NCBI RefSeq assembly: GCF_001857945.1
Contig: NZ_CP017770.1
Span: 496,001 to 560,000, forward strand
DNA from: Paenibacillus crassostreae
GTDB taxonomy: Bacteria > Bacillota > Bacilli > Paenibacillales > Paenibacillaceae
Direction: 5' to 3'
Length of the DNA: 64,000 bases
Of the stretch, positions 11,179 to 58,211 are shown in pieces. Each line of letters begins with the position of its first letter. Within the stretch, counting starts at the first letter, position 1. A program made the translations under genes and the position numbers. The notes beneath the pieces are model-generated. The model did no database searches and was not told the DNA's origin. It was given only the letters and a program-made list of their open reading frames with translations.

Positions 11179-11221
11179 CTGGTGGTATTAACCAGTAGTA
11201 TATTAGGGATAGTATGTTGCT

Positions 11222-11252
11222 TTATTGAACTAACGGGTCCCGTTAGCACAAC
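11222..11252. repeat. CCCGTTAGC repeat, copy A
   Basis: Single box starting TTATTGAACTAACGGG and followed by TCCCGTTAGCACAACG. Its centre CTAACGGG-T-CCCGTTAG is a perfect 8+8 palindrome. It ends 2 bp from the stop codon of the lipoprotein gene to its right. Confidence 0.8.
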
Positions 11253-12239: not shown

Positions 12240-12272
12240 GTTCAAATCCCTTTCCTTAGAATACCACATATT

Positions 12273-12371
12273 GGAACTATTCTGCTCGTTAGCGTAATGA
12301 AAAAGCAGCCGATCGTCTGACCGGCTGCCATCGTGTCTTGATTGAACTATCGTACCCCGTTAGCACAATAA
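12273..12371. repeat. CCCGTTAGC repeat, copy C (box-hairpin-box)
   Basis: Left box GGAACTATTCTGCTCGTTAG (then CGTAATGA), hairpin GCAGCCG/CGGCTGC (12305-12311, 12322-12328), right box ATTGAACTATCGTACCCCGT (then TAGCACAAT). The right box ends 1-2 bp from the stop codon of the next gene. Confidence 0.8.
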
Positions 12372-12822: not shown

Positions 12823-12884
12823 ATTATCACCCACCCATAGATTCCCTCATTTGGCTAGGTTTTATGTGCCAAGAAAATGTTCTG

Positions 12885-12966
12885 TTAAACTGCCCGTTAG
12901 CTGAACAAAGGGCTACCTCACGGCAGCCCTTTCATTATTGAACTATAGTGTCCCGTTAGCTGAACA
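12885..12966. repeat. CCCGTTAGC repeat, copy D (box-hairpin-box)
   Basis: The best-preserved copy. Left box TTAAACTGCCCGTTAGCTGA; hairpin AAAGGGCTACC/GGCAGCCCTTT (12907-12917, 12922-12932) with one A-C mismatch; right box ATTATTGAACTATAGTGTCC (then CGTTAGCTGAACA). The right box ends one base from the stop codon of the next lipoprotein gene. Confidence 0.85.
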
Positions 12967-12967
12967 A

Positions 12968-13432: not shown

Positions 13433-13544
13433 TTCATATTCCCCTTTTCTTAGATGCTACATTGGGGTTAGACGTTCTGTTTGTTCTATTGTTACGGTTT
13501 ACCTGTTTGGGAAATAGAGGGAACTCTCCTAGCTGTTAAGCAAT

Positions 13545-13584
13545 CCTGCCCCGTAGCCATACATGCAGCCCAAGAGCGGGCTGC
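13545..13584. repeat. CCCGTTAGC repeat, degenerate copy E
   Basis: CTGCCCCGTAGCCATACATG resembles the left box, followed directly by hairpin GCAGCCC/GGGCTGC (13565-13571, 13578-13584). No right box is recognisable. Confidence 0.45.
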
Positions 13585-13830
13585 ACCACAGAGGATGAAA
13601 ATGGATACCTCAGTCTATACTGTTTGTACGGCTGGCGAAGAAGGTCGATAAGCTATGGTGCCATAGAGCCCAACCGTTAGTCTGACTCCGACCACCACGG
13701 TGCATCACAGATTGTCGCACCCTATATGGGTAGCACTCATGGGAGATTAATCCTTTTTTGGTTGTTGCACCAGCCTTGCCTTTTTGTTTGTTATCTATGA
13801 TGTTTTTTGTGCTTAAAAGATCTAACAATC
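13585..13830. other. Non-coding GC-richer stretch, possible IS110-type end remnant
   Basis: No credible protein is encoded here. The text GGATACCTCAGTCTATACTG and, on the other strand, GACAATCTGTGATGCACCG with GGTTGGGCTCTATGGCACC resembles the structured non-coding ends of IS110-family elements, but no transposase frame is left. The identification is from memory of such ends and is weak. The rest of 13831-14066 shows only a short open frame (YAHSERLPMHGYPVLKK) that I cannot place. Confidence 0.25.
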
Positions 13831-43718: not shown

Positions 43719-44237
43719 ATGAGTAAATTTACTGTTGAACATAAAATCGATGCAGTGGATAGATACCAGAAGCAATTAGAGAGCGTGGATAAAATTGCTC
43801 GTTCAATAGGAGCGAATAAGGAAGTTGTACGTATGTGGATCAAACAATATGAATATCACGGATTAGTAGCTTTCGAAAAGTCCTATACTTCTTACACAAC
43901 ACAGTTTAAAATGGATGTACTTCATTATATGAACGAAAATGGGGCGTCCCCAAACGAAGCTGCAGTAATCTTTAATATTTCATCTCCTGCATTGATTCGA
44001 AAATGGAGAATACAGCTGAGTACTATCGGAATAGACGCTCTCTTTTCGAAGAAAAAGGGGCGTCCATCAATGATAAAAAAGCCAACGAAACAAGTAATAC
44101 AAGCATCCGTTGAAGGATCTGTTGAAGTACTTGAAGCGCGAATTAAACAACTTGAAATGGAGAACGAATATTTAAAAAAGTTGAATGCCTTAGTTCAGAA
44201 CAAAGAAAAATCACCAACCAAGACAAAGCGCAAGTAG
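43719..44237 (+). CDS. IS3-family OrfA (helix-turn-helix)
   Basis: A 172-residue DNA-binding transposase subunit with two helix-turn-helix units (ARSIGANKEVVRMWIKQYEY and EAAVIFNISSPALIRKWRIQ) and a C-terminal leucine-zipper-like helix (VEVLEARIKQLEMENEYLKK). The duplicated HTH is standard for the IS150 group. GGAGGTGCAG precedes the ATG. Frameshifting at A6G (44174-44180) fuses it to OrfB: the -1 frame from there runs open into OrfB with no stop. Confidence 0.9.
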   Translation: MSKFTVEHKIDAVDRYQKQLESVDKIARSIGANKEVVRMWIKQYEYHGLVAFEKSYTSYTTQFKMDVLHYMNENGASPNEAAVIFNISSPALIRKWRIQLSTIGIDALFSKKKGRPSMIKKPTKQVIQASVEGSVEVLEARIKQLEMENEYLKKLNALVQNKEKSPTKTKRK

Positions 44238-44263
44238 TCTATGAGTTAAGGCATAAATATCCG

Positions 44264-45073
44264 GTGAAGGCGCTCGTGAAGCTTGCTGGCATTCCACGTA
44301 GCACGTATTATGATTTTATAAAGAAAATGAACCGACCCGATCTTGATGCCGATTTAAAGGCTGAAATCGAATCAATTTACGATGAACATGAGGGCCGCTA
44401 TGGTTATCGTCGTATTCGTGATGAACTAGTGATTCGTGGGAAGAAAGTTAATCATAAGAAGGTTCAACGCATTATGAAAGAGCTTGGTTTAAAATGTCTT
44501 ATACGTATGAAAAAGTATAAATCGTATAAAGGTACAGTTGGTAAAATTGCGCCCAATCATTTAGATCGTCAGTTCAATACGGAAGCACCGAATGAAAAAT
44601 GGGTTACGGATATTACGGAGTTTAAATTATTCGGAGTAAAGCTGTATTTATCACCTGTATTAGATTTGTTTAACGGAGAAATTATAACATACACTATTGG
44701 CTCACGACCGACCTATTCACTTGTTTCAGAGATGTTAGCGAAGGCGTTAGTACGCCTACCAAAAGACCGCCAACTGCTCATGCACTCCGATCAGGGTTGG
44801 CATTATCAAATGAAGCAATATCGCCATGCGCTTCAAAAAAGAGGCGTCCTACAAAGTATGTCTCGTAAAGGAAACTGTTATGATAATTCCGTGATGGAGA
44901 ATTTCTTTGGCATTATGAAATCAGAGTTTCTCTACTTCAAAGAATTCGAAAGTGTAGAACACTTTAAACTAGAATTAGAAAAATATATAGAATACTATAA
45001 TACGAAACGGATTAAGGCAAAATTAAAAATGAGTCCGATACAATATCGAACTCATTTTGAGCAAGCAGCCTGA
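44264..45073 (+). CDS. IS3-family OrfB (DDE integrase)
   Basis: At least 269 residues from GTG 44264; as the frameshift product it extends upstream through ITNQDKAQVVYELRHKYPVK. It has the HTH_21 region (DEHEGRYGYRRIRDELVIRG) and rve catalytic core with DDE residues: Asp in WVTDITEF, Asp in MHSDQGWHYQ, Glu in NFFGIMKSEFLY. The transposase is the OrfAB fusion. Confidence 0.92.
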   Translation: MKALVKLAGIPRSTYYDFIKKMNRPDLDADLKAEIESIYDEHEGRYGYRRIRDELVIRGKKVNHKKVQRIMKELGLKCLIRMKKYKSYKGTVGKIAPNHLDRQFNTEAPNEKWVTDITEFKLFGVKLYLSPVLDLFNGEIITYTIGSRPTYSLVSEMLAKALVRLPKDRQLLMHSDQGWHYQMKQYRHALQKRGVLQSMSRKGNCYDNSVMENFFGIMKSEFLYFKEFESVEHFKLELEKYIEYYNTKRIKAKLKMSPIQYRTHFEQAA

Positions 45074-45109: not shown

Positions 45110-45494
45110 AGATATGCCTGTTTTATTACTAAATACAATATTGGTCTTATAATTTAATTTATCTGTGTCAAGTTCCGCAAGTATACTTGCTCTTAATGCA
45201 TCATCTTCAATAGAACCTTTTAATTGCCTCGGAACTTCCTTTACTATTACTTCATCCGAATGTTCCTTTTCTATAGGTGGGGTTTCGATGAAATCTTCGT
45301 TAGTTAACTTAGTACTTGTGGGTAAAAATTTAGTAGTGTTCAACTCTGATCCATTGTTGTTATCCTGAAGCGAAGTACAACCTGTTAAGGAAACAATTAC
45401 TATGATTACTCCCAATAAAAAAAGTCTTCTCATCCAAATCACCTCAATATTCAGACGAAGGAGATAGGTAAAATGTTCCAATATATTCAATCTA

Positions 45495-45600
45495 TTATTG
45501 AGTTATCGTGTTCTGTTAGCTTAATCGGCAATAAAATTAGAGGAACTCTATTGATGAGAGTTCCTCTGCTATCATTCTTTGTTAGCATAAAGACGGCAAC
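45495..45600. repeat. CCCGTTAGC repeat, copy F (box-hairpin-box)
   Basis: Left box TTATTGAGTTATCGTGTTCT (then GTTAGCTTAAT), hairpin AGAGGAACTCT/AGAGTTCCTCT (45539-45549, 45557-45567, perfect), then a degenerate right box CTTTGTTAGCATAAAG. The order relative to hairpin is as in copies C and D, but the hairpin sequence is unrelated. Confidence 0.7.
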
Positions 45601-48632: not shown

Positions 48633-48689
48633 GGGTTGTTTCGCACACGGTAGTAGGCGAAGACTCATTTACAATATGGGGTACGCAGA

Positions 48690-48730
48690 ACGACGGTAGC
48701 CGATCATCTAGGCCGGCTACCGTCGTTTTA
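48690..48730 (+). terminator. Terminator after SDR operon
   Basis: ACGACGGTAGCCG (48690-48702) pairs perfectly with CGGCTACCGTCGT (48714-48726), tail TTTTAT. Confidence 0.88.
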
Positions 48731-48994
48731 TGGTTGAGCAATTGTTCCCAGTTAGTTGAGCGCCGGGAGCACATAGTATGGTCTTCAATAATTACATCTT
48801 CTGTCTGAATACCGATAAGATCCAGGAAGCACGGCATCACCGCATCTTCTTCACTTTATTTCATTATAATTAGCCGCTTACCGCTGGTTCACTGCAAGGC
48901 TGATCCCTTTTGATAACATATAACATTGTGTTGCAGTACATTATGCCTTTGCGGTCTTTTTGGTGTTGAATGATTTTAATTCTTGTAAGAAAAA
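48731..48994. other. Intergenic; possible transposase start remnant
   Basis: On the minus strand the frame PCFLDLIGIQTEDVIIEDHT (about 48770-48840) could be the first residues of an ISL3-type transposase, but it then runs into unrelated codons. No intact gene. Confidence 0.25.
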
Positions 48995-49026
48995 TTATTG
49001 AACTATCGTGTCCCGTTAGCGTAATG
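48995..49026. repeat. CCCGTTAGC repeat, copy G
   Basis: Single well-conserved box TTATTGAACTATCGTGTCCC followed by GTTAGCGTAATG. It lies 36 bp from the stop of the Rrf2 gene. Confidence 0.82.
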
Positions 49027-49061
49027 TTCGGATTGCTATGATACAGAACGGACAGCCAAAA

Positions 49062-49553
49062 TCAGTCTCTTTCTTTTTGCAAATGATTATTACAGTCTTT
49101 ATTAGCCTTATCTAAAATAGATTGTATGGAGTGATTTTTAAAAAATAGGTGTAAGGCACTTTCAGCATTATCCATGACCTCTTTAATTCTACAAACACCT
49201 AGATTCTCTTCTTTACCCATTATTTGGACATTGCTTTCATCTGTCAATAACGTATGTTGTCTAGAATCTGAATTAGAACAATTAAACATTTGTTGTCTAC
49301 CTTCAGTAGACAAAATAACATCTAAAAATGTGATATGACTAGCTGAACGTGATAGTTCATATCCGCCTTTTACACCAGGGACAGCTCTAACAATCCCATC
49401 TTTCCGTAACTTAGTCATAATTTTTGACAAATAACTCTCCGATACGTCTAGCATATTGGATAATTCTTTAATACCTATTTTATATTCGCACTCTGAATTA
49501 GCCAAATGAACTAAGGCATGTAGTGCATAATCAGTATTTTTCGCAAATTGCAT
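49062..49553 (-). CDS. Rrf2-family regulator
   Basis: A 163-residue Rrf2 protein: MQFAKNTDYALHALVHLANS, GIKELSNMLDVSESYLSKIM then VPGVKGGYELSRSASHITFL. Only two or three cysteines are placed near the cluster region (FNCSNS and GVCRIKE), so Fe-S binding is uncertain. It is 50 bp downstream of a methyltransferase gene on the same strand and could regulate it. Both genes lie between repeat copies G and H. Confidence 0.87.
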   Translation of the reverse strand: MQFAKNTDYALHALVHLANSECEYKIGIKELSNMLDVSESYLSKIMTKLRKDGIVRAVPGVKGGYELSRSASHITFLDVILSTEGRQQMFNCSNSDSRQHTLLTDESNVQIMGKEENLGVCRIKEVMDNAESALHLFFKNHSIQSILDKANKDCNNHLQKERD

Positions 49554-49603
49554 CCTTTTAACCCCATTTATTATATTATCAGCATTGCTGGTACAATACC
49601 TTT

Positions 49604-50164
49604 TTATTCATTTTTTTGTGCAACAATTATATAAACAGGTTGATTAGCCACTTTAGTTTGAGGATAAAAAATATCGACTATATCAAAGCCAGCATTAAGA
49701 ACTTCTTCTTGCATATTTTTTGATGAAACTCTCGGACCAGTTGATAATTCTGACTTCTCTAATTCAATACAAAGAAACACTCCTTTATTTTTTAAGACCC
49801 TATATATTTCGCCTAATGCAAGCGAAAGTGGTTTAACTTCGTGAAGTGATATTGAAGCAACAGCCTTATCAACTTTTTCGTTACCTAGTTGTATATCTTT
49901 GAAATCTGATACAAGAGTTTTAATATTGGTAATTCCATTTTCCCCAGCTTTTGTTTCCAAGTACTTTAAAATATCTTCATCATAATCAAGTGCAATTACT
50001 TCATCTACATACTTAGAAATTGGAAGACTTATATAGCCACCTCCTGCTCCAAGATCTAATAATTTATCCTCTTTATTAAGGGATACGAACCGAAATAGCT
50101 CATCGGCAGGGAATCTATTTATATTCTCCAAATTATTTACTTTTCTAATTAATTTTTGATTCAT
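49604..50164 (-). CDS. Class I SAM-dependent methyltransferase
   Basis: A 186-residue UbiE/Methyltransf_11-like enzyme. The SAM site is LLDLGAGGGYISLPIS (motif I near residues 35-50), the acidic end of strand 2 is in IALDYDEDIL, and LVSDFKDI supplies motif III. The N-terminal helix INRFPADELFRFVSL is common in small-molecule or metalloid-modifying members. Substrate unknown. The gene precedes an Rrf2 regulator. Confidence 0.87.
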   Translation of the reverse strand: MNQKLIRKVNNLENINRFPADELFRFVSLNKEDKLLDLGAGGGYISLPISKYVDEVIALDYDEDILKYLETKAGENGITNIKTLVSDFKDIQLGNEKVDKAVASISLHEVKPLSLALGEIYRVLKNKGVFLCIELEKSELSTGPRVSSKNMQEEVLNAGFDIVDIFYPQTKVANQPVYIIVAQKNE

Positions 50165-50294
50165 TTCAAATCACCTTCTTATTATAGATATTTTGACTCT
50201 ATTTTAACTATAATTGAATTATTATTATTTGTAAACATTTTGATCTAAAGGATATTAAGATTGCATCCTTTTTAAAAGCTTATTGGAAAATTTA

Positions 50295-50341
50295 ATTTAA
50301 ACTATCATGTTATTTCATTAACGGGGGCGTTAGGGAAACGA
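50295..50341. repeat. CCCGTTAGC repeat, degenerate copy H
   Basis: TTTAAACTATCATGTTATTT then CATTAACGGGGGCGTTAGGG and AAACGAG contain two shifted and decayed boxes. It lies 64 bp left of the 75-residue protein gene. Confidence 0.5.
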
Positions 50342-50404
50342 GTTAAATAAAAAACGGTTCCTATACGTAAATTTGCAGGAATGCAAAATAAACTTAAATA
50401 ATTC

Positions 50405-50632
50405 TCAGGGTTGTTCATCTGAAGGTCTTCTTTTATGTTTTTCATTAATGATTTTCTTGTTAAGTATCCTTACTTTACCAATCATTAGCAACCTCATATC
50501 TTCTACAATATATTTAGCCAACTCTTCGTCAGAAATGTCATCGCCATCAATATCAAGATGAAATTCCTGGCCTTGAATACCACCGCCGTTCGTAAACTCG
50601 ATATCAAAGTCGAATAGAACTCTTTTATCCAT
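50405..50632 (-). CDS. Small conserved-type protein, unknown
   Basis: A 75-residue acidic protein: RVLFDFDIEFTNGGGIQGQE, FHLDIDGDDISDEELAKYIV, then EDMRLLMIGKVRILNKKIIN and a basic tail KHKRRPSDEQP. The structured pattern and high conservation-like character suggest a real protein, perhaps a cyclase-operon partner, but I cannot name it. It follows repeat copy H. GGTGATTCGAA precedes the ATG. Confidence 0.65.
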   Translation of the reverse strand: MDKRVLFDFDIEFTNGGGIQGQEFHLDIDGDDISDEELAKYIVEDMRLLMIGKVRILNKKIINEKHKRRPSDEQP

Positions 50633-50783
50633 TTCGAATCACCTTAACCTTAGTTTTAAAATGATATATATTCTGGTTTTAAAAAACAATTACCTTCTTC
50701 CTCAAACCTGTTTCATTACTTTAATAAGGTAAAAGCGATCCTCCGTTATTGAAGCATCGCACCTGTTACTTAAAAAAATAAAT

Positions 50784-51011
50784 TTATATACCCGAATTAA
50801 CGAGATACAAAAATAATGCAACCAAGCCTACAACAATAGCAATGCTTAATAAAGCAATCGTATATTTCTTTCTTAACAGATTATATATCGAAGCGATAAC
50901 CCCAAGAGATAAAAGGACAACAGTTGAAACAATGTCTTTAGCTACATACATATAGTTTAGAATCCCTAAAATCACTAAGAGTAAAGGCAACATATTTATT
51001 AATAACTTCAT
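50784..51011 (-). CDS. Small membrane protein
   Basis: A 75-residue protein with three hydrophobic segments (about residues 3-22, 27-44, 50-72) and hardly any loops. GGGAGGG lies 5 bases before the ATG. No family recognised. Confidence 0.6.
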   Translation of the reverse strand: MKLLINMLPLLLVILGILNYMYVAKDIVSTVVLLSLGVIASIYNLLRKKYTIALLSIAIVVGLVALFLYLVNSGI

Positions 51012-51069
51012 TTTTCCCTCCCAATAACTCTCTTTATATTAACATAATTAACCAAATATCGATTCAATC

Positions 51070-51130
51070 TTATTGAAGTAAACTGCCAGTTAGTTCAATA
51101 AAAAGAACGCTCCCCGCCTTCGCTTGGGCT
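51070..51130. repeat. CCCGTTAGC repeat, copy I
   Basis: TTATTGAAGTAAACTGCCAG and TTAGTTCAATAA form a strikingly good dyad (TTATTGAA...AACTG/CAGTT...TTCAATAA), followed by a degenerate hairpin GCTCCCCGCC/GGGC. It shows the palindromic nature of the box. The rest of 51131-51308 is empty. Confidence 0.65.
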
Positions 51131-51308
51131 ACGTCCTCCTCATTATATTCCATTTCCAATCACCTATTAAAGAATGTACGTGGGTAGCATGTAGTGCTTA
51201 AACAGGGGACTTATCTTAACCTAAGCACTAAGAAAATACTTTACTTTCTTCTGACACCTTGATGTTTATGAAGGTAAGAAGTCTGTTTCAAAACCTAGCA
51301 ATGATACG

Positions 51309-51851
51309 TTACTTTACAACCCGGTACCGTAGATGGGTCTCACTCGCAAAGGCAGATGTTTCTATACGCTCCAACTTAATACGCTCTCCGAGCCCGCCAA
51401 ATAATGAAATGCCGTCACCCAGCAGCAGGGGTACTACATCTAATACGATATCATCCACTAAACCAAGTTTGAGGCATTGCCGGGAGATGCTGCCACCCAA
51501 AAGAGCGACACTTTTATCGCCAGCGCTTGCTTTGGCAGCCTCAACGGCTTGCTTAATATCGTTAACGACGAAACTATACGTAATACCATCTTTTTCAACC
51601 GGTTCATGGGCTTCGTGGGTCAAGAGGTATATTGGAATTTTCAACATACCACCGTACGGGATCTCCCCTTCTTCAATCGTGTTCGTTTTATTGGCGCCAC
51701 CAACTACGGCGCCTATTTCCTCCATGACTTTATTGACTACTGCGTAATCTTGGTCCGTAGCTTCAAAATCGAACATCCAATCGATACCACCGTCTTTGTC
51801 GGCCATGTATCCATCTAGTGTGGTTGTTGCGTGAATAATAACTTTTGCCAT
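51309..51851 (-). CDS. Dihydrofolate-reductase-like (RibD C-terminal) protein
   Basis: A 180-residue protein of the bifunctional RibD/DHFR fold: VIIHATTTLDGYMADKDGGI, VGGANKTNTIE, ALLGGSISRQCLKLGLVDDI and VVPLLLGDGISLFG are hallmarks of YyaP/YwjB-type proteins. These bind NADPH; their substrates are unknown and folate metabolism should not be assumed. GGAGATATAATA lies before the ATG. It lies between repeats I and J. Confidence 0.88.
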   Translation of the reverse strand: MAKVIIHATTTLDGYMADKDGGIDWMFDFEATDQDYAVVNKVMEEIGAVVGGANKTNTIEEGEIPYGGMLKIPIYLLTHEAHEPVEKDGITYSFVVNDIKQAVEAAKASAGDKSVALLGGSISRQCLKLGLVDDIVLDVVPLLLGDGISLFGGLGERIKLERIETSAFASETHLRYRVVK

Positions 51852-52112
51852 TATTATATCTCCTTTACTTCTTAGTTTCTAAATACGGGTTAATAAACTG
51901 TGTAAATTGTTAGCGCATCCAGTCTGAGAGTGTCCCTTCCTCGATATAATCGATAAATTCGTCACTATTGTTACGATGGAAAATCCCTTGTAAATGGATT
52001 TAGACATTGGCTAAATAGCACTTTAATTTCTTCTGATACTGAACCAACGGGAGCCAGTCTAACACTTTATTTTTCAGTCTAATACTTTATTTTCTTCTAA
52101 CATTAATCTGTT
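51852..52112. other. Intergenic, short gene-tail remnant
   Basis: A 26-codon minus-strand tail (IFHRNNSDEFIDYIEEGTLS, ending DWMR-stop, near 51915-51995) is probably the end of a deleted gene. A GTTAGCG core at 51910-51916 beside it may be an eroded repeat box. Nothing else was recognised. Confidence 0.4.
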
Positions 52113-52214
52113 TTACTGAACTAGCGTTCCCCGTTAACGCAACGAAGCTGCCACAGATCGATCTGCGGCAGCTTCGTAGTGTTGTTTATTGAGCTCTCAT
52201 CTCCTAAGTTGCTG
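52113..52214. repeat. CCCGTTAGC repeat, copy J (box-hairpin-box)
   Basis: Left box TTACTGAACTAGCGTTCCCC (then GTTAACGCAACGA); hairpin CGAAGCTGCC/GGCAGCTTCG (52143-52152, 52167-52176) with inner palindrome CAGATCGATCTG and one A-C mismatch; right box TTTATTGAGCTCTCATCTCC, decayed. It lies 26 bp from the RCC1 gene stop. Confidence 0.75.
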
Positions 52215-52239
52215 TGTATTTTATTATTAATATTGAAAA

Positions 52240-53136
52240 CTAATTTCCGGGCAGTTGGATGCCACGCCAGCCGCTTACATCGCATTGGCCATATTCATTA
52301 TCACCCACAGCAACCACCGTGCCGTCCGATTTAAGCCCTACGGTATGGGCACAACCGGCCGAAATCGCCACAATATCGCGCCAATCACTTACATTACATT
52401 GGCCATACTCATTCCAACCCACAGCTGCCATAGTACCGTCCGATTTAAGGCCGATGGTATGATTACTACCCACCGCTATCGCCACAATATCGCGCCAGCC
52501 GCTTACATCGCATTGGTCATGTTTATTCAAACCCACAGCCGTCACCGTACCGTCCGATTTAAGACCAATTGTATGAAGATAACCAGCCGCGACCTCCACA
52601 ATATCGCACCAGCCGCTTACATTGCATTGGCAATACCGATTATTACCCACAGCCGTCACCGTGCCGTCTAATTTAAGACCGATGGTATGCCAGTCACCCG
52701 CCACGACCTCCACAATATCATGCCAGCCGCTTACATTGCATTCACCTTCATTATTTCGTCCCACTGCTACCACCGTGCCATCCGATTTAAGCCCAATGGT
52801 ACGACGCCAACCCGCCGCAACCATTACAATATCGCGCCAGTCGTTTACATCGCATTGGTCATACTTATTCCAACCAACAGCCGCGACAGTTCTGTCAGAT
52901 TTAAGACCAATTGTATGTGCATTACCCGTGTTCGTCGCCATATGAACATTACCAGCCGCGACCGCCATAATATCACGCCAGCCGCTTACATTACATTGAC
53001 CATATTTATTATCACCCACAGCCGTCACCGTGCCGTCAGATTTAAGCCCCACGGTATGACGACGACCCGTCGCTATGGTATCTTTAGGCCACCGTTTCAC
53101 CTTTAACATCGCTTCTTTCGATGAAATGTAATCCAT
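52240..53136 (-). CDS. RCC1-repeat (beta-propeller-like) protein
   Basis: A 298-residue protein made almost wholly of seven RCC1-type repeats of 39 residues, each HTIGLKSDGTV-AVG-N-Y-QC then NVSGWRDIV-VAAG. Seven blades are the number of a closed RCC1 propeller. An extra 11-residue insert (NVHMATNTGNA) sits between repeats 1 and 2. The repeats are near-identical in DNA too, so recombination may vary their number. The function is unknown; such proteins bind other proteins or nucleosomes in eukaryotes. It sits between repeats J and K. Confidence 0.87.
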   Translation of the reverse strand: MDYISSKEAMLKVKRWPKDTIATGRRHTVGLKSDGTVTAVGDNKYGQCNVSGWRDIMAVAAGNVHMATNTGNAHTIGLKSDRTVAAVGWNKYDQCDVNDWRDIVMVAAGWRRTIGLKSDGTVVAVGRNNEGECNVSGWHDIVEVVAGDWHTIGLKLDGTVTAVGNNRYCQCNVSGWCDIVEVAAGYLHTIGLKSDGTVTAVGLNKHDQCDVSGWRDIVAIAVGSNHTIGLKSDGTMAAVGWNEYGQCNVSDWRDIVAISAGCAHTVGLKSDGTVVAVGDNEYGQCDVSGWRGIQLPGN

Positions 53137-53253
53137 GTTTTAGCTCCTTGTAAACAAGACCTTTTTTATATACGTTTCATCGTGGTCAACTACTTGCGAG
53201 AGTTGTACGTTCCATCAAGAAATATTACCACGAACTGTCGTTCTTGGGTTTTG

Positions 53254-53351
53254 TTAATCTGCCCGTTAGCGGAAAAGACCTGCCGATCCATTACTGTTGG
53301 CAAGTCTTCCCCTGATGTTTATTGAGCTATAGTATCCGTAAGCTTAACGAA
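53254..53351. repeat. CCCGTTAGC repeat, copy K (box-hairpin-box)
   Basis: Left box TTAATCTGCCCGTTAGCGGA; hairpin AAGACCTGCC/GGCAAGTCTT (53276-53285, 53300-53309) with one mismatch; right box TTTATTGAGCTATAGTATCC (then GTAAGCTTAACG). It lies between the RCC1 gene and the phosphotransferase fragment. Confidence 0.78.
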
Positions 53352-53399
53352 AAGCGGTTAATTATGAGTATTCTTTTCCTCTTCATTGTTTTGCGTTGT

Positions 53400-53738
53400 C
53401 TAAATATTTCCTAACAAAGCGGACATATTTTTTTGACTTTCAGCAAGCCAAATCATTTCCTTTGCGAAGCGAGCTGGCGGTACACTATGTTGATCCATGT
53501 TAGCATTAATCCACCATGTACTTTCCATATACCACAACAACTGTAATGAATATGTTAAATAACCCTCTACCACGTTGTGTTCCTCACTGTACCCTTCCAT
53601 AAACGCCGAAGCCAGGGAGACATCTAAATTATCATCTAAGGCACATGATATAACAGCACGAGCTACATCAAGTTGCGGATAGTCATACTTTAGTCGATCA
53701 AAATCTAAAATTGCAGTTAAAAAAATGCATTTATATAA
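53400..53738 (-). pseudogene. APH/choline-kinase-like phosphotransferase, C-terminal fragment
   Basis: A 112-codon frame without start, opening after a TGA at 53741-53739: LTAILDFDRLKYDYPQLDVA, then RAVISCALDDNLDV and the helical tail EGYLTYSLQLLWYMES. DFDRL...YDYPQLDVARA is the metal-binding and following helix of aminoglycoside-phosphotransferase-like enzymes. The N-terminal two thirds, including the nucleotide-binding lobe and the HGD-catalytic loop, are missing. An inner ATG (53600) would only make a useless 66-residue peptide. Confidence 0.75.
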
Positions 53739-53878
53739 TCATAGTTTTGTCCTTGACACGAACTATCTCAACTAAATATACAATACCTTCCTTTTCATCT
53801 ATATACTACTACAAAATACGTGATACCTCCAGTGTCAGGTTGATTAATAAGAAAATATGTTTAGCTTTCGCTTTTCAT

Positions 53879-53911
53879 GAAACTAGCCTGCCTGTTAGCG
53901 CAATCTTACTG
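53879..53911. repeat. CCCGTTAGC repeat, copy L
   Basis: GAAACTAGCCTGCCTGTTAG followed by CGCAATCTTACTG, then a hairpin TTCTCTTC/GAGAAGA at about 53930-53951. Only one box is present. Confidence 0.6.
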
Positions 53912-53980
53912 CAATAATTCTTTCTCTTCTGTATAGAGAAGATGACGAGTGAAGGTTTTCGGTCTTAGTACAGAGTCAAA

Positions 53981-58007: not shown

Positions 58008-58084
58008 CCTTCTCCGAGATTATTCTAATCTTGACTATGATTTAAAAGTGTATATAATACAAATTAATTGCATATGTTGAATGT

Positions 58085-58211
58085 TTTCTAGGGTTCCGCA
58101 ACAATAAATGTTGGTCTGGTCCGAGAGAAAACTCACAGCTATGCTGTGCCACGGAAGGATAAAAGCCTGGGAGATACTGTTTTACAGTTATCTCTTTGGC
58201 TTTTTTTGCTT
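58085..58211 (+). ncRNA. Guanidine-I (ykkC) riboswitch with terminator
   Basis: The conserved blocks are present in order: CTAGGGTTCCG, GGTCTGGTCCGAGAGAAAAC, a variable hairpin (CACAGCTATGCTGTG), CCACGG, and GGATAAAAGCCTGGGAGA. The last block overlaps a terminator, AAGCC...GGCTT with inner GAGATA/TATCTC stem and seven T at 58201-58207. Guanidine binding should block the terminator and turn on the SMR genes. The leader fits known biology of this class exactly. Confidence 0.93.

Follow-up and report, generated by a model that had tools for sequence, protein, structure and literature searches.

What are the repeats that separate the accessory genes at positions 48,995 to 53,911 of a 64,000-nucleotide stretch of Paenibacillus crassostreae DNA (contig NZ_CP017770.1, positions 496,001 to 560,000; the whole stretch is called the window here), and are they connected with how these genes came together? 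The original prediction read six repeat copies, G to L, as the borders of gene cassettes. Our comparison of the window with other genomes of its family, its order and the Bacilli makes it very probable that the interval represents a decayed piece, without a recombinase, of an integron-like system for gene capture. The system would function as an integron does, with a different enzyme and different sites, the recombination itself being a reading of sequence comparisons.

Paired core sites form arrays of one direction

Using a weight matrix, we found 552 sites in 19 stretches, nearly all of them pointing in one direction within a stretch, and none in the reversed sequences. The matrix was trained on these same 19 stretches, the window and 18 taken from five further genomes, so that the count is not an independent test; the reversed control is a fair one. 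The sites extend over about 95 kb in a single orientation in G094, a genome of the same genus. A long-site pattern, allowing at most two mismatches, was present in 87 of 148 genomes of the family and 156 of 246 of the order, and the same pattern read backwards was found zero times in every genome listed.

The arrays are built from two related core sites in the same orientation, S (TTNAACTATCCTGCCCGTTAGCNNAA) and L (TTATTGAACTATCGTNNCCCGTTAGCNNAA), which flank an inner stretch of ~42 nt with variable sequence and a conserved hairpin, while the genes lie between L and S. The step from S to L mostly measures 57-77 bp (147 pairs lie less than 100 bp apart, with a mode of 70-71), and the step from L to S has a median of 795 bp, the length of one gene. 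The 144 S-L pairs contain 139 distinct inner sequences, whose median fold z-score is -4.9, with 91% below -2. Open reading frames (ORFs) run opposite to the site direction in 117 of 124 single-ORF L-to-S units and, across all site-bounded gaps, in 356 of 446 mechanically called ORFs. The original prediction had placed the repeat on the 3' side of each unit. This oversimplifies a layout in which, in intact arrays, every gene is bordered by an L site on the 3' side and by an S site on the 5' side, with an S-hairpin-L element of ~70 bp between neighbouring genes.

Ordinary dispersed elements, such as hairpins resembling repetitive extragenic palindromes or miniature inverted-repeat transposable elements (MITEs), or terminators, might also accumulate beside genes and be gathered into arrays by homologous recombination or at insertion hot spots, without a dedicated recombinase. 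Each composite does contain a stable hairpin, sites occur in 67 of 127 genomes that lack the recombinase described below, and the same spot is used by IS110-like elements. Against such an origin, which we consider improbable, stand the alternation of L, gene, S and hairpin at fixed spacing and in one direction over ~100 kb, the presence within arrays of a recombinase with a site at a fixed distance, and homology between units that stops within the core. We also rejected the hairpin as a transcription terminator, since its T-tails are not directional (16 vs 19 of 139).

Units recur with unrelated flanks and end inside the core

We compared the units between sites at the DNA level, counting as homologous those pairs with at least 75% identity over at least 80% of both members. 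There were 429 homologous pairs, mostly of recombinase units, and 425 of them had different flanks on both sides. After removal of the 58 recombinase units among 654, with 80% identity required and a crude motif serving as filter for insertion sequences (IS), 27 pairs of other units remained; 24 differed on both flanks, three shared one flank and none shared both, and identity between different genomes reached 98% and more. Single cassettes, among them that of the recombinase, are found again at up to 100% identity between flanks that are unrelated.

In alignments, the homology of shared units stops inside the core: with the G of GTTAG as reference, identity at each position is no higher than between unrelated sites to the left of about -1 and to the right of about +4. 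A 3123-bp unit present twice in G094 (98.2% identical) ends at CC|GTTAG and follows an attI-like L site in one copy and an S site in the other. Two arrays of G040 have short gene units in common with different hairpins on both sides, and hairpins therefore do not stay with genes.

IS110-like elements are inserted at CC|GTTAG as well in G094, which raises the question of whether elements of this type carry the cassettes and the sites are merely their targets. IS110-like ORFs and shared non-coding ends begin at this position in G094, and relatives of IS1111 are known to target attC sites (PMC11187229). Only 12 IS110-like ORFs lie among the site-bounded gaps of 18 stretches, though, and the 27 pairs that remain once recombinase and motif-matching units are taken out still swap flanks at the cores. 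We therefore regard transport by IS110-type elements as highly improbable.

An Xer-like recombinase with its own attI-like site accompanies the arrays

A tyrosine recombinase of ~280 amino acids (aa), Xer-like, is encoded twice within the G094 array. The recombinase P0001 scored 193 bits against XerC (cut-off 335) and 189.8 bits against XerD (cut-off 330), below the equivalog cut-offs of these enzymes of chromosome dimer resolution, and scores against the XerA profile (187-188 bits) were likewise below the cut-off. Residues R138, K162/K165, H229xxR232, H255 and Y264, which we take to be of the catalytic type, are invariant in 18 aligned recombinase sequences. A structural model of P0001 built from an alignment of 18 sequences (predicted local distance difference test score, pLDDT, 83.6) had its best match in XerA (Z 22.3) and also matched XerH, IntI4 (Z 18.0) and Cre.

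The match to IntI4, together with an array, an attI-like site, a hairpin element and IS110 targeting that all resemble those of integrons, could indicate a genuine but divergent IntI/attC integron. The ends of attC sites are RYYYAAC and GTTRRRY; sites here end in GTTAGC, which does not fit the latter as commonly written, the third R being mostly C in the consensus CCCGTTAGcttAA. The recombinases scored 90.8 and 98.8 bits against the integron integrase profile TIGR02249 (cut-off 265), values beneath those for XerC and XerA, and 60.7 and 70.1 bits against PRK15417 (cut-off 435). In the PRK15417 alignments, profile positions 192-252 stand opposite residues 183-204, leaving about 39 positions unmatched, and it is there that the additional domain of IntI presumably falls. 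This domain, absent from the recombinase by profile alignment, is named as a criterion for an integron integrase in PMC2426708. An attI-like site next to the recombinase gene and exchangeable site-bounded cassettes are thus shared with IntI-type integrons, while integrase score, additional domain and attC ends are not, and membership in that class seems to us exceedingly improbable.

L sites with at most two mismatches occur in 20 of 21 recombinase-bearing genomes vs 67 of 127 others (Fisher P 1.7e-4), with a mean of 15.6 sites per genome in the presence of the recombinase and 2.0 in its absence. Close relatives of the recombinase (E<=1e-50) were found in 21 of the 148 genomes of the family, spread over 9 of 19 genera, and because many are 76-90% identical across genera, their distribution suggests horizontal spread.

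Among the genome contigs, 238 stretches encode a recombinase relative, and we analysed the best 80 of these 238 loci, each named; they are mostly from Paenibacillus, with others from Cohnella lupini, Brevibacillus daliensis, B. migulae and Bacillus sp. strains. In these 80 loci, 518 of 523 sites are oriented opposite to the recombinase gene. An attI-like site, scored as L or S, lies 79-118 bp upstream of the recombinase start in 50 of the 78 loci with enough sequence, and in 41 of 80 an S-type site, mostly with the signature CCCTTTAG, lies within 130 bp of the 3' end of the gene. In recombinase leaders (39 of the 80 loci, chosen by hand) a CCTCCC further upstream pairs with the Shine-Dalgarno sequence, GGGAGG. 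Of the six predicted pairs of this stem, three have both partners altered in one or more sequences (7, 4 and 2 sequences), which suggests that a leader hairpin restrains translation of the recombinase.

Sites of the window and probable loss of its recombinase

The sequence CCCGTTAGCGYAA, with up to two mismatches, occurs 11 times in the 64-kb window against 1.31 expected, and none of 100 shuffles attained 11; a general repeat search of the window, used alone, overlooks the site family. We scored the window sites with a site model, R1, and with the weight matrix, and give single positions as the G of GTTAG. Five of the six copies are real sites by these models. Copy G is an L core at 48993-49026 (L at 49015; R1 28.4 bits, matrix 47.6), and copy I an S core at 51070-51108 (S at 51089; R1 21.8 bits, matrix 33.5). 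Copy J lies at 52103-52144 (site at 52133; both models), copy K is a composite at 53252-53349 of S core (53265), hairpin and damaged L core (53338; R1 40.1 bits), and copy L is an S core at 53875-53904 (S at 53894; R1 14.2 bits, matrix 26.4). The confirmed copies share one orientation, plus, opposite to the minus-strand genes of the interval. Copy H (about 50298-50335) fell away, with a best score of 6.3, on the minus strand, against 23-48 for the confirmed copies of this second run.

The models added two plus-strand copies to the left of the interval, an L-type core at 45476-45526 (R1 21.6 bits, matrix 33.1) and a hairpin with an L core, and no S core seen, at 48685-48760 (R1 34.8 bits). A first run, also on the plus strand, includes an almost palindromic L-type core at 11207-11252 (R1 23.3 bits, matrix 38.4) and intact composites of S core, hairpin and L core at 12270-12371 (R1 70.3 bits, E 6.6e-21; hairpin fold) and 12880-12967 (R1 57.9 bits). 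The window genome as a whole contains 15 composites or parts by R1. Elsewhere in it, a further small orphan array (L284, G000:C1:250000-255000) has two S-hairpin-L composites near ORFs that by eye resemble GNAT and nucleotidyltransferase genes.

No recombinase of the array clade was found in the window genome at E<=1e-50, and we conclude that the recombinase is lost from it. Its tyrosine recombinases near sites (at 27.4 kb and 3566 kb) were rejected as the array enzyme, with less than 30% identity to P0001; all the tyrosine recombinases of this genome that we compared were under 31% identical. Part of copy J, at 52103-52136 on the plus strand, is an attI-type half-site, whose 34 nt match the attI region from locus L157 at 91% identity (E 5e-7). 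The hexamer CTAGCG occurs in four of six L sites adjoining a recombinase and in three of 264 others, copy J being one of these three; in copy J and in one G094 site among the exceptions, leader-like sequence is still visible by eye. Because of the attI-region match and the hexamer, 52103-52136 is probably a remnant of the leader and attI of the lost recombinase, its footprint. A sequence search for recombinase coding remnants in the window gave nothing below E 0.08, and a pattern search found no copy of the leader there.

Genes of the interval

Pfam agreed with four of the predicted gene identities. On the minus strand lie an Rrf2-family regulator (49062-49553; PF02082, E 1.4e-30), a methyltransferase (49604-50164; PF08241, E 3e-16), two small ORFs of 75 aa each (50405-50632 and 50784-51011), a DHFR-like protein with a RibD C-terminal domain (51309-51851; PF01872, E 1.6e-15) and an RCC1-repeat protein (52240-53136; PF13540, E 5.4e-56). 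They are followed by the remains of a gene labelled a phosphotransferase in the original prediction (53389-53720, minus strand), which is broken as described, all three minus-strand frames of 53380-53880 containing stops. The Rrf2 and methyltransferase genes and both 75-aa ORFs share one L-to-S interval, and the equation of six copies with six cassettes, along with exact unit boundaries, is not supported.

The whole stretch from 48900 to 53960 was found only in the window's own genome in a search of 245 family genomes (scoring at most two candidates per genome, so that further separate units could be missed); elsewhere, single units matched, and the conserved gene order that would have spoken against the original prediction did not appear. 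The Rrf2 region (49058-50371) is 93% identical in G223, where it lies inside an interval between two detected sites, and relatives of the broken gene at 95-96% occur in G094, G191 and G236, the G094 copy lying between array sites. In G036 the RCC1 unit forms a complete cassette bounded by sites (93.2% identity), and in Bacillus sp. FJAT-28004 (L154) it directly adjoins the recombinase cassette, with unrelated flanks (89.2% over 948 bp). The core idea of repeat-bounded cassettes is supported by single-unit matches and by the RCC1 cassettes of these two genomes.

Several observations weigh against this interpretation. In the window, copy H failed, and the DHFR-like unit is without the expected inner L and S. 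In G213, the DHFR-like gene has a 96% relative, and the 20 kb read there contain no site; of the RCC1 relatives, taken with 1.5-kb flanks, most have no detected site nearby, so that both genes also travel or are inherited by other routes. Beyond the window, 90 of the 446 mechanical ORFs in site-bounded gaps have the opposite direction, IS110-type elements at CC|GTTAG account for part of the shared boundaries, and no attI-like site was detected in 28 of 78 recombinase loci. Sites persist in the 67 recombinase-less genomes mentioned above, and in G021, which does have the recombinase, no L site occurs at up to two mismatches, although R1 finds four matches.

Other elements were noted in the window. 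About 180 bp at 51072-51258, starting within the S core of copy I, recur across many of the family's genera, with identities of up to 95-97%, and are a separate repeat or MITE. An S-like core at 13552 is followed by CATACATGCAGC, the start seen at junctions of IS110-like elements and sites in G094, and 13535-13800 is probably an IS110 remnant. Two adjacent ORFs at 43719-45073, close to where the second run begins on the left, resemble by their look an IS3-type insertion sequence. An Rfam scan of the window at gathering score gave no match to the repeats and a single match in all, a Guanidine-I riboswitch at 58077-58175, which stands upstream of two genes (to 58902) that by eye encode small multidrug-resistance-type transporters.

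Related arrays in other Bacilli

Recombinases at E<=1e-50 occur in 27 of 348 Bacilli genomes, and a second group is about 47-55% identical. We read 15 loci of this group, from 11 genomes. Relatives of ~50% identity are part of comparable arrays in at least two further genomes of Bacilli, and also on a plasmid of Sporosarcina. G498 has an array of CCCGTTAG sites whose direction matches that of the recombinase gene, contrary to the Paenibacillus group, and G294 a repeated core, ACAATCGGGGGC. On the Sporosarcina psychrophila plasmid (L288, NZ_CP146247.1), the recombinase gene has a site 84 bp upstream of it, and five more matching motifs are spread among genes of the cassette type. This array lies near genes for mercury resistance, NUDIX and GNAT proteins, and the recombinase is annotated only as tyrosine-type recombinase. 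Several other loci have few or no matrix matches. The repeats of G434 were rejected as a site array, being only tandem repeats and not the same thing; there (L265, G434:C1), a 21-bp tandem repeat array, GCGCTCATAGAAAG, lies about 2.1-2.7 kb from a 55% identical recombinase. Phage records held only distant relatives of the recombinase, below 60% identity.

A proposed gene-capture system comparable to integrons

The arrangement suggests how such a system may work. The recombinase would bind the inverted arms of each core, with strand exchange in the conserved CCG next to TTAG; units could therefore be excised and then inserted again, either at attI or at another S or L site. Exchange between S and L, and also between two L or two S sites, seems possible, so that gene units and hairpin units could separate. 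Because transcription of the genes runs towards attI and the recombinase, promoters are probably carried by the cassettes themselves.

With integrons, including sedentary chromosomal integrons, the arrays share a tyrosine recombinase beside an attI-like site, one-direction arrays of unrelated single genes, a hairpin-forming element with a variable middle between cassettes, IS110-type elements at the sites, and orphan arrays without an integrase. They differ in that the enzyme is Xer-like and under the integron-integrase cut-offs, the element consists of two direct core sites around a hairpin, GTTRRRY ends are lacking, and in the Paenibacillus group the direction of the genes is towards attI, with the recombinase forming a unit between sites like any other. 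Like a CALIN (cluster of attC sites lacking an integrase), the window has sites and cassettes without a recombinase, but its sites are not attC by consensus. Plasmid Xer/dif modules (pdif) combine an Xer-type recombinase fold with genes flanked by short recombination sites, two features also found here, whereas the arrays have a dedicated recombinase under the XerC/XerD cut-offs, an attI-like site of its own and S-hairpin-L elements.

We lean, with some reserve, towards a broader conclusion: that Bacilli own a class of integron-like platform that originated independently of IntI, has an Xer-like recombinase travelling as a cassette and restrained by a Shine-Dalgarno hairpin, comprises several recombinase lineages each with its own core (CGTTAG in Paenibacillaceae and G498, ACAATCGGGGGC in G294), and resides on chromosomes and plasmids. 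The IntegronFinder 2.0 survey reports complete integrons as nearly absent from Firmicutes, with one, in Limnochorda pilosa (PMC9024848), and in another paper Firmicutes are only named in a list of phyla (PMC8618304). PMC12690207 yielded nothing relevant, and PMC9668308 none of the terms looked for. We found no description of the present system in the literature searched; subscription papers and preprints lay outside its scope, and a prior description is possible.

If the interpretation is true, a major route of gene shuffling has been overlooked in a phylum where integrons are believed to be almost absent. A different recombinase and site system doing the integron's job would explain the shuffling of accessory genes in these bacteria, and a second origin to compare with integrons, as well as new pairs of recombinase and site, would follow. 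It would also make testable whether gene capture of the attI/attC kind has evolved more than once.

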